Origin: Candidatus Aminicenantota bacterium
Lineage (GTDB): Bacteria > Acidobacteriota > Aminicenantia > JAMOAD01
Assembly: GCA_027061995.1 (NCBI GenBank)
Contig: JAMOUT010000082.1
Location: 1 to 29,608 of the forward strand
DNA: 29,608 nt
Reading direction: 5' to 3'
Shown: one piece after another, positions 26,266 through 29,608 of the stretch
Layout: every line of letters starts with the position of its first letter
Numbering within the stretch: position 1 is the stretch's first letter
Made by a program: the position numbers and the translations under genes
The notes under the pieces: model-generated
Told to the model about the DNA's origin: nothing
The model's database searches: none
Seen by the model: only the letters and a program-made list of their open reading frames with translations

Positions 26266-26868
26266 ATGAGTAAAGAAAAAATTTTAACCGCCGCAAAAGA
26301 GGAATTTGCGGAATTCGGATTGTCAGGAGCAAGGGTAAGCAGAATTGCGGAAAAAGCCGGTATAAATAAAGCTATGCTGTTTTATTATTTTTCATCAAAA
26401 GAAAATCTGTATAAAAGTGTTTTAAGGCAAACTATTCTCGGGTTGATGTCTCAAATAAAAAAAATTTTAACACCCGATCTTAAAGCATCCGAGTTTTTTG
26501 AAAAAATGCCTGAAATATATATAAATTATTTTTCAAAAAACAAAGATTTTATAAAAATAATGGGAAGAGAACTTATTAATGACGGTAAACATTATAAAGC
26601 CATTATCAGGGAAACCCTTGAAGAGGATGGAAGATTAACCCCTTCGGGGATAAAAGAACTTATAAATAAATGGATAAAAAACGGGGAGATTAAAGAGGAA
26701 AGTCAATTCAATATGATGATGAACATAGTTTCCCTCTCCCTTTTCTCTTTTATAGGAAAACCGATAGCGGAAAATATTTTGGATATAAATATTAAAGAGG
26801 ATGAAATATTTTATAAAAACAGAATAGAAAGTATCTCGAATCTATTAAAGAGAGGGATGTTAAAATGA
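26266..26868 (+). CDS. TetR/AcrR family repressor of the efflux operon
   Basis: A 200-residue regulator. The N-terminal DNA-binding domain is textbook TetR: ILTAAKEEFAEFGLSGARVS leads into the helix-turn-helix at about 24-43, with AGINKAMLFYYFSSKENLYK. The ligand-binding C-terminal half (about 60-200) is helical and not informative about the inducer. It starts at ATG 26266 after GGAGGGG and ends in a 4-base ATGA overlap with tolC. Position immediately after twin palindromes and before an efflux channel gene indicates that it represses its own operon and is released by a toxic or membrane-active ligand. The ligand is unknown. Confidence 0.9.
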   Translation: MSKEKILTAAKEEFAEFGLSGARVSRIAEKAGINKAMLFYYFSSKENLYKSVLRQTILGLMSQIKKILTPDLKASEFFEKMPEIYINYFSKNKDFIKIMGRELINDGKHYKAIIRETLEEDGRLTPSGIKELINKWIKNGEIKEESQFNMMMNIVSLSLFSFIGKPIAENILDINIKEDEIFYKNRIESISNLLKRGMLK

Positions 26869-28169
26869 AAAAAAGATTAACAACTATCATAATTGTTTTC
26901 CTTATCTCAATATCAGTGTATGCAAGAATATCTTTAAAAGAGGCTGTTAAAAAAGGGATAGAAAAAAGTTATGCTGTTTCAAATGAAAAGATTGAGAAAA
27001 GGATTGCGGAAACAGAGAAAAAGATAGGTGAAATCGATAGATTGTTTAATATCGGTTTTAATGGTCTTTATCTTTATAAATCAGAGCAAGCGGAATTAAA
27101 TATGCCGGATATTAAACTATCCCCTACCATGACTATTCCCGGAATTCACATGCTGGCAGGGACAAAAGATATCTTTGATTTTAATCTGTCTGTAAAACAA
27201 CCTTTATATACGGGAGGGATTTTATCAAACATAATAAAACTAAGTGATATAAAAGGTTTGCAGCAGGAAAATCAAAGGAAATTAATTGAAAACCGACTTG
27301 AGATTGCTATAAAAAACAGTTTTTTAAATTATAAAATCCTACTATTACAAGAAAGATACCTTGGTCTGGTAAAGAAAGATATTGAAAATCACCTGAACAA
27401 ACTTAATGATTATTTTAAAGAGAATCTAATACAAAGAAGTGATATTCTTGAGACGGAGCTAAAAGTAGAAGAGATTAAAATGAATATTATGGATATAAAA
27501 GATAAGATCTCGGACTCAAAGATAGAGTTTGAAAATTTAACGGGGATATCTCCTGAAGATATTAACGGAAAATACGGCGAAAATATTCTTAATTTTAAAG
27601 AGTCCGTTAATTATCTTAAAAAAAATCATACTATGATAAAAACATTTGACAATAGTATTAAGACAATTGTCATTAAGAAAAAAATGGATAAAGGGAGATA
27701 TCTTCCTCAGATCGGAGCTTTCGGAGAGCTTCACTATGGAAAGCCCGGGATAAATTTTTTCAAAAACAGTTGGTCACTTTATTTTCAAGGGGGAATCAGT
27801 ATAAGTTTTAAACTTTTCGATTGGGGTAAACTTAAAAAAACAAATAAAATATCGGATTATTCCATGGAAAAGATAAAAAATAAAAAAAATGAATTTATTG
27901 AAGAAACAGAAAAAAAATTAAAAAAACTTTATTTACTAAAAAAGATTTTGAAACAAAAACTTAGTTTAGCGGATAAACTTTTAAAGATTTCGATTGATAA
28001 CTCCAGATTAAAAGAAAAGAGATTCAGAGAAAAACAGGAAGATAATATGGAATATATATCTTCCATAATTAAAAAAGAGCTTTATAATATTCTAAAAGAG
28101 CAACTGTTAATAAAGATAGAGATGGTAAATATAAATATAAACGGATTAATTAATAGGAGTCAACTATAA
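26865..28169 (+). CDS. TolC-family outer membrane efflux protein, last residues altered by IS110 insertion
   Basis: A 434-residue outer-membrane channel subunit for a tripartite efflux pump. A signal peptide (MKKRLTTI, cut near VYA-R22) is followed by ISLKEAVKKGIEKS, the usual first helix of the outer membrane efflux fold. Two long coiled-coil helical hairpins (about 120-225 and 310-425) flank strand regions such as KQPLYTGGILSN and FKLFDWGKLKK. Heptad-like Lys/Glu/Leu content is high. The final residues SQL and the TAA stop come from the insertion element. Without it the gene would end NRR-stop, so the channel should still work. The pump and adaptor genes are expected downstream, beginning at 29588. 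Confidence 0.88.
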   Translation: MKKRLTTIIIVFLISISVYARISLKEAVKKGIEKSYAVSNEKIEKRIAETEKKIGEIDRLFNIGFNGLYLYKSEQAELNMPDIKLSPTMTIPGIHMLAGTKDIFDFNLSVKQPLYTGGILSNIIKLSDIKGLQQENQRKLIENRLEIAIKNSFLNYKILLLQERYLGLVKKDIENHLNKLNDYFKENLIQRSDILETELKVEEIKMNIMDIKDKISDSKIEFENLTGISPEDINGKYGENILNFKESVNYLKKNHTMIKTFDNSIKTIVIKKKMDKGRYLPQIGAFGELHYGKPGINFFKNSWSLYFQGGISISFKLFDWGKLKKTNKISDYSMEKIKNKKNEFIEETEKKLKKLYLLKKILKQKLSLADKLLKISIDNSRLKEKRFREKQEDNMEYISSIIKKELYNILKEQLLIKIEMVNININGLINRSQL

Positions 28170-29360
28170 AGAATTATGAAAAGAGGAGATGAATTTTTGA
28201 TTATTAGAAAGCAAGGCAAAGAGGATTCTAACGAGTTTATTACAAAGAGCAATAATAGCTTTTCTATGATGCATTCCTTGGGACTTTTTTTTCTGATAAT
28301 AGTTTTTAAAATAATCATTAGAGCGAATAAGACTGTTAGCCATAAGGTAAAGATATCTTCTCAGAGATTTAGAGCCTTTTTTACTAATTCTCCCTTTTTT
28401 GAGGGAATTACCGGATTGTTTCACGGCGGGGTCAATACCTGCAAAAGCAGCGAGTTTTCTTTTGTTTTCGAATCTATTGATGTTTTTGATTTCGACCAGG
28501 AAATGAGCGGAAGTAATATCACTTATCCCTTTAATAGATTTCATGATATCCATATCATTTTTTTTAAGTTTTTCCATTTGATTGAGAAATATTTTAGTGA
28601 TTTTTCTGATTTGAAGATTAAGGAATTTCAACCTTTGCACATCAAGTTTAACAACAAATTCATAGTTTTCGGAATAAAGAGCAATAGAGTTTTTAGCCAA
28701 TTCAATAAATTTATCATAAGTAAGTTTTGGTTTTCGCCCTCTTTTGCAGAGATTATCAAAGAGGGCTTTGATTTTAATTTCGGGAGCATTAATAATAGAG
28801 TGAGCGGAAGGGAATCGTTCGAGGATGGAGAGGATAAAATCGGTAAAGATATTATAGTTAGTTGTGAGCTCGGGAAAAAGGAGAACGATATGATTTTTAA
28901 GCTGAGTTTTGGTTTTTGCGATTTGCTTCGAGAGTTCTTCTCTTGTTCTTGCAAGAGCAAGAATATCATCAGTTATACTGGGGACAAGGCTATGAATGTT
29001 CTCAATGTTTTTAAAGGCATACTTGGCTATAATAAGAGCATCAATTTTATCTGTTTTGGTTTTTCTGAGAGAAAAAGATTGAATGAATTTTTTAATAAGA
29101 AGAGGGTTAATGAGTGCAATAGTGTATTTGTTTAAAGAAAGAAATGATAGGAGGTTGAGATGATAGTTGCCTGTGGATTCAAGAGCGATAAAAGAGTCGG
29201 GATAAGTTTTGAGAATTTTGTTAAAGAAATTAAAACCATCGGTATTCATGTTAAGATTACCTTCATTGATAAGTTTCATGGAATCATCAAGGATAGCATA
29301 ATTAAACTTATCTTTGGAAATATCAATACCGATGAAAAAGTTAAAAGAATTGGTTTTCAT
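28164..29360 (-). CDS. tnp: IS110-family transposase (DEDD and Ser recombinase)
   Basis: A 398-residue recombinase. The N-terminal RuvC-like DEDD domain is intact: Asp13 in GIDISKDKF, Glu61 in ALESTGNYH, Asp104 and Asp107 in KTDKIDA. A coiled-coil stretch covers about 120-265. The C-terminal Transposase_20 domain has the helix-hairpin-helix GISDITSAHFLVEI (279-291), FAGIDPAVKQSGNS with candidate catalytic Ser316, and KKGSKSLRRYLYLMA. The ATG at 29360 is preceded by AAGGAG. No frameshift or missing residue is seen, so the enzyme looks functional. It lies antisense to the efflux operon; long open frames on the opposite strand (28176-29135 and 29160-29579) are shadows. Confidence 0.95.
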   Translation of the reverse strand: MKTNSFNFFIGIDISKDKFNYAILDDSMKLINEGNLNMNTDGFNFFNKILKTYPDSFIALESTGNYHLNLLSFLSLNKYTIALINPLLIKKFIQSFSLRKTKTDKIDALIIAKYAFKNIENIHSLVPSITDDILALARTREELSKQIAKTKTQLKNHIVLLFPELTTNYNIFTDFILSILERFPSAHSIINAPEIKIKALFDNLCKRGRKPKLTYDKFIELAKNSIALYSENYEFVVKLDVQRLKFLNLQIRKITKIFLNQMEKLKKNDMDIMKSIKGISDITSAHFLVEIKNINRFENKRKLAAFAGIDPAVKQSGNSLKKGRISKKGSKSLRRYLYLMANSLIRSNDYFKNYYQKKKSQGMHHRKAIIALCNKLVRILFALLSNNQKFISSFHNSL

Positions 29361-29388
29361 GAGAAACTCCTTTTAATTTTATTTTTGT

Positions 29389-29514
29389 GTCCCAAACTCA
29401 ATCTCCCGTTTAACCGTGACTTTGGAGTCAAATCAACTAATAGGAATTTTTGGGACGGGGGACAGACTCCTATCGAAGCTTTTATGCTTATTAAAAATGC
29501 AGTCCTCTGTCCCC
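29389..29514 (-). ncRNA. Predicted IS110 bridge RNA core (target and donor loops)
   Basis: On the transposase strand two large stem-loops sit one base apart. The first (29514-29458) has an 8-pair GGGGACAG/CTGTCCCC stem. The second (29456-29389) has an 8-pair GTCCCAAA/TTTGGGAC stem. The first loop carries GCAUUUUU on its 5' side and AUAGGAG on its 3' side, fitting the reconstructed target. The second carries UAGUUGAUU and GGGAG, fitting the element's own ends. This is the target-loop then donor-loop order known from IS621. Exact RNA ends are not determined; the RNA is probably longer on both sides. Confidence 0.7.
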
Positions 29515-29587
29515 TGTTTTTTTTTGTCATAATGCTATATTTTATCATTATAAAATATAAATATCATATTTATTCGTAGGAGGTAGA

Positions 29588-29608
29588 ATGAAAAAAATCG
29601 TATTGATT
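29588..29608 (+). CDS. Start of the next efflux-operon gene, cut by the window end
   Basis: Seven codons, MKKIVLI, follow TAGGAGG with a five-base spacer. By analogy with tetR-tolC-adaptor-pump operons it is probably a periplasmic adaptor (HlyD/RND membrane-fusion protein), but too little is present to tell. The IS110 element now separates it from the tetR-tolC promoter, so its expression may be reduced unless the element reads outward. Confidence 0.55.

Follow-up and report, generated by a model that had tools for sequence, protein, structure and literature searches.

Both the IS110 element type and its RNA mechanism have been described (PMC11208160, PMC11208158, PMC11187229). The closest described systems, IS621 and ISCro4 (PMC11208160, PMC11208158), share with the element reported here the recombinase domains, an RNA with two loops at the left end, a left guide identical in sense to its target, a right guide complementary to it, and a CT core shared by the pairings. 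The seekRNAs of IS1111 and IS110 elements (PMC11187229) are likewise non-coding RNAs that direct insertion through short matches to both target strands; those of the IS110 type lie upstream, as here, whereas the IS1111 seekRNAs lie downstream and carry their guides in the other order (PMC11187229). With respect to the target, the nearest relative is IS900 of Mycobacterium avium subsp. paratuberculosis, whose target CATGNNNNNNTCTCCTT consists of a start codon followed by CT-CCT, i.e. a Shine-Dalgarno sequence (PMC8141618). The title of Doran et al. 1997 (cited in PMC8141618) states that IS900 targets translation initiation signals. IS900 also has an antisense frame (hed) over its transposase (PMC8141618). 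It differs in its actinobacterial host, and its likeness to our element lies in the target type and, with less certainty, in the antisense frame.

In a stretch of 29,608 nucleotides from a Candidatus Aminicenantota bacterium (hereafter the window), we found what is very probably an IS110-group insertion sequence with a left-end bridge RNA whose target guides read a translation start (Table 1). In contrast to IS621, its guides spell a Shine-Dalgarno sequence and a start codon, and its close family has a stop-free antisense frame. The target of IS621 is formed by REP-type repeats.

Table 1. Features of the window element, its RNA and its insertion site.
Feature	Positions	Strand	Remarks
Whole IS110 element, 1423 bp	28160..29582	minus	left-end core CT through the base preceding the right-end core CT
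IS110 transposase/recombinase, 398 aa	28164..29360	minus	Pfam DEDD_Tnp_IS110 and Transposase_20
Left-end core CT	29581..29582	minus	CCTACG next within the element
Right-end core CT	28158..28159	minus	ATAGTTGA precedes; includes TTGACT, -35-like, 28158-28163
Bridge RNA core: target-binding and donor-binding loops	29389..29514	minus	fold, covariation, model R1
Target-loop stem, 5' arm	29506..29514	minus	GGGGACAGA; pairs with 29458-29466 (9 bp); fold and covariation
Target-loop stem, 3' arm	29458..29466	minus	TCTGTCCCC; fold and covariation
Donor-loop stem, 5' arm	29449..29456	minus	GTCCCAAA; pairs with 29389-29396 (8 bp); fold and covariation
Donor-loop stem, 3' arm	29389..29396	minus	TTTGGGAC; fold and covariation
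Left target guide CAUUUUUAAU	29490..29499	minus	follows CATTCTACCT; CAU = start codon complement
Right target guide AUAGGAG	29467..29473	minus	pairs with CTCCTAT; Shine-Dalgarno sequence
Left donor guide UAGUUGAUU	29431..29439	minus	follows TAGTTGACT of the right end
Right donor guide GGGAG	29403..29407	minus	pairs with left-end CTCCT, one wobble
Antisense open frame, 319 codons, hed-like	28176..29135	plus	depletion of stop codons throughout the close family
TolC-like outer membrane efflux gene	26865..28169	plus	Pfam OEP; stop codon overlapped the interrupted Shine-Dalgarno sequence
Rebuilt Shine-Dalgarno sequence and start codon of the HlyD-like gene downstream (AGGAGGTAGAATG)	29578..29590	plus	

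The recombinase has the domain layout of the IS110 family, with a DEDD RuvC-like N-terminal domain and a C-terminal Transposase_20 domain containing a serine, and a profile search matched it to IS621 (8wt6) and ISCro4 (9t56). Residues D13, E61, D104, D107 and S316, the presumed catalytic residues, are invariant among eight homologues (alignment A1). The dinucleotide core CT is present at both junctions, and the left-end and right-end motifs are conserved across seven homologous elements. The metagenome-assembled genome of the window contains one full-length copy. A stretch of right-end sequence (TTTTCATAATTCTTTATAGTTGACT, about 25 identical bases) is also present at L111 (G000:C54:42139-42151), where a transposase is not visible; this is probably a relic of an older copy. 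When the element ends are joined, TTGACT of the right end and a TAT-rich hexamer of the left end are separated by about 17 bases, so that such a circle may contain a promoter driving the RNA; the window has a poor -10 match. The next contig (L003, C86) overlaps positions 29510-29608 of the window with its first 99 bases, showing small differences, which suggests that strains vary or that the assembly breaks at the left end of the element.

Two adjacent stem-loops had been predicted on the transposase strand from the window sequence, each with an 8-bp stem. Both were recovered, the second with 8 bp and the first with 9 bp. The two-loop fold (z = -3.4) was better than all of 200 dinucleotide shuffles. 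The original prediction had staked itself on stems that are conserved in homologous elements, and in an alignment of seven distinct homologous RNAs (A3) compensatory changes on both sides were found for 8 of 28 pairs, a number equalled in none of 500 shuffles. In this alignment, 92% of the cells of the 28-pair structure can pair and sliding the partners destroys the fit, although the structure was drawn by hand with the aligned sequences in view, which gives it an advantage over the slid controls. A search of Rfam returned no matching family for the window RNA. Our own model R1 scored it with 145.8 bits, the window being among the sequences used to build the model, and did not detect the RNAs of distant elements from Bacillota, so that the guides of the latter were read from matches without a structural model. 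Among homologues the donor loop is conserved and the guide segments of the target loop are variable, as has been described for the bridge RNAs of IS110 elements (PMC11208160). Judged by homology and covariation, the window RNA is a bridge RNA. One transposase copy (L046, G465:C16, about 1445-1510) has a left end that abuts a gene and lacks the entire bridge RNA; it may have suffered a deletion, be misassembled or depend on another copy.

According to our proposal, the first loop would provide the target guides, its 5' side repeating the left target in sense orientation and its 3' side being complementary to the right target, whereas the second would provide the donor guides, directed at the joined ends of the element itself. 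The right target guide is a Shine-Dalgarno sequence and the left one carries CAU, the complement of AUG. With guides reading a translation start in this way, recombination at the CT core (AG on the gene strand) would place the element inside AGG-AG-G in front of a start codon, and the transposase would run antisense to the gene. Since the left end starts with CT-CCTAC, the interrupted gene regains an AGGAG. The RNA is inferred to be transcribed and to serve the recombinase as a bound guide.

The CT cores, the left target CATTCTAC (29590-29583) and the right target CCTATTAA (28157-28150) had been read correctly, as had all guide positions except that of CAUUUU, which lies at 29499-29494 and had been placed one base off. 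The right target guide, predicted to be complementary to CTCCTAT, matches perfectly over seven bases. The predicted left match CAUUUU is present with its wobble but weak: six matches or wobbles are followed by three mismatches beside the core, and the guide scores lower on its own target than those of L041 and L044 do on theirs. The guide may thus have drifted since insertion, or mismatches may be tolerated more readily than in IS621. The proposed matches of the donor guides to the joined element ends (UAGUUGAUU/TAGTTGACT and GGGAG/CTCCT) hold and are largely conserved in relatives, with GUUGAUU of the left donor guide kept in 7/7 homologues. An alternative donor register that had been considered, GGAGTCAA at 29424-29431, was rejected; it forms part of the hairpin at the tip of the donor loop and differs among homologues.

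On the gene strand, the joined flanks read AATAGG-AG-GTAGAATG, in which a TolC-like gene ends with its stop codon and an HlyD-like gene, preceded by a Shine-Dalgarno sequence, begins. The remainder of the latter is located on contig C86, and its name was taken from the translation and the neighbouring genes rather than from a family search. In a relative (G003, locus L107), the homologous TolC gene (53%), with the end ...AGGAGGTAATATG, runs uninterrupted into CAGGAGGTAATATGAAAAAA, a junction that represents the precise empty site of the window insertion. The motif AGGAG-N4..7-ATG occurs 11 times in the 29.6 kb of the window, counting both strands, and 7/7 insertions of elements with the Shine-Dalgarno guide type are found at this motif, which is far beyond chance. 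In each of the seven, the start codon is on the left flank and CT-CCT on the right. Insertions were found before genes for a TctC-like receptor (L010), an exonuclease III-like protein (L041), a purine-nucleoside phosphorylase-like protein (L104) and a BNR-repeat-like protein (L105), as well as before a gene in G063 (L011) and an ATG in G497 (L044), all names having been assigned by reading translations.

The close family comprises homologues from a Deferribacteraceae metagenome-assembled genome (L010, 66% identity) and from the phylum of the window (L041, 55%; L011, 41%), with further members from the phylum of L010 (G459, G463, G465 and G497). Within it we found three guide programmes with three matching targets. 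The Shine-Dalgarno programme is represented by the window, L010, L011, L041 and L044, in which the left guide starts with CAU and the right guide ends with AGGAG; their insertions are located at [CAT-N5..7]-CT-CCT in 5/5 cases. The distance from CAT to the core differs among elements, so that bulges have to be assumed in some pairings. The guides of G459 are CAGUGGGAA and UAUUUAG, and eight of its nine copies are inserted at CAGTGAGAA or CAGTGGCAA-CT, the ninth at a related site. These nine copies (L043, L047 and L049-L055) belong to one genome, and eight are located at the end of a palindromic repeat of the type TTAGTTCTCAC TTTTTC AGTGAGAACTAATTA, a REP-like target with different guides. For G463, with the guide UUCAAAGGUCU, the left ends follow TTCAAAAGT-CT and TTCAAAGCT-CT, and the right guide CUAGUUGAG (L048) showed no match to its own right flank. 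At positions 1173-1290 of L048 there are tandem left ends, the second inside the target loop of the first copy. That guide segments co-vary with their own insertion sites was the other point on which the prediction had been made to depend. When guides were permuted among targets, the left guides reached the observed fit 34 times in 5040, the right guides (three of which are identical) 144 times and both together 14 times.

The same co-variation is seen in a wider IS110 set that includes distant elements from Bacillota plasmids and phage contigs, whose transposases are about 30% identical and which behave alike. Here, the fit of own guides was reached by swapped guides in 2 of 20000 trials on the left (20 elements) and in none of 20000 on the right (17 elements), kinship being uncorrected; most swaps were between Shine-Dalgarno targets, which makes this a demanding control. 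In total, 20 of 22 boundary-resolved insertions are located at a Shine-Dalgarno/start-codon junction, the exceptions being G459 and G463. This is no estimate of frequency, since some elements were chosen for their visible context and six loci with unresolved boundaries (L012, L013, L038, L083, L097 and L098) were left out. A scan of open reading frame starts for Shine-Dalgarno contexts near distant elements (12/20 versus 50/224 control windows) proved too permissive, and reconstructed junctions were used instead. Viral contigs carrying the right-end motif were mostly chance matches; one of them, L060, contains the terminal part of a related transposase.

Could the structure be a protein-binding or regulatory one of the left end that matches its targets by chance? 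The individual matches are short (6-9 bases), but the permutation tests in the close and wide sets speak against chance, as does a conserved donor loop next to target-loop guides that differ from element to element; we consider this explanation the most improbable of all. Hardly more credible is a survival effect acting on a real bridge RNA, in which insertions within genes were lost and those directly in front of genes remained. Intergenic insertions are generally better tolerated, and the copies were sampled from living genomes. Such an effect would have to account for 7/7 insertions at precisely one dinucleotide of AGGAG(G), at a distance of 4-7 bases from ATG, for the presence of the motif in the guides themselves, and for sister elements with other guides at other, matching sequences.

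A third scenario concerns the window copy only and is compatible with guides that read the translation start: the family works, and this copy is dead or drifted. The three near-core mismatches in the left guide, the single full-length copy and the right-end relic elsewhere in the genome point in this direction, and its left guide may have drifted. Against it stand the intact 398-aa transposase with conserved catalytic residues, the intact ends and the intact RNA fold, and we regard a defective copy as possible but rather doubtful.

In the window, L010, L041 and L044, an antisense frame of about 320 codons opens close to the right end, within the element. Of the Leu and TCN-Ser codons, those that create antisense stops (TTA, CTA and TCA) make up 3-5% in six of the seven close relatives. 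In the genes of other IS110 elements their share is 13-54%, and nine host genes from the window give about 24-45%. The stop-creating codons account for 17/393 codons versus 209/860 for other A-ending codons (odds ratio 0.14, p = 8e-21, with codons treated as independent). The depletion is lost in G463, whose element does not target Shine-Dalgarno sites. Conservation of the encoded amino acids is no higher than in other antisense frames, so that a protein function is not supported, and no Pfam match was found for the frame. Alternatively, the frame may keep ribosomes moving through the insertion. Elements from Bacillota at Shine-Dalgarno sites lack the depletion, which suggests that the antisense frame is not needed for this targeting.

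The original prediction of a working bridge RNA with an undescribed target is thus borne out by covariation as far as the bridge RNA is concerned. The target is recognisable as a Shine-Dalgarno/start-codon signal and, since IS900 has the same target type, "undescribed" holds only for the exact string. Insertion aimed at translation starts is known mainly from IS900, and an earlier link to a guide RNA was not found: our literature search retrieved no paper combining IS900 and bridge RNA, which is weak evidence as few subscription papers and no preprints were covered, and neither IS900 nor Shine-Dalgarno is mentioned in the main bridge RNA paper (PMC11208160).

Taking the wider set into account, we see about even chances that a broad IS110 clade, spanning several bacterial phyla and phages, has bridge RNAs whose programme is the universal translation-start signal. 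Its members would enter almost any gene leader and rebuild its Shine-Dalgarno sequence, and one subfamily would keep a stop-free antisense frame that gives a product dependent on host expression or lets ribosomes follow the transcript across the element, softening polarity. The three guide programmes represent natural reprogramming, in which the same recombinase type and donor ends are combined with three unrelated target guides and three matching targets, and they may be useful parts for building programmable bridge recombinases. For some IS110 elements, and for IS900 first, guides that spell the signal would provide a testable RNA explanation of their exact insertion at translation starts.
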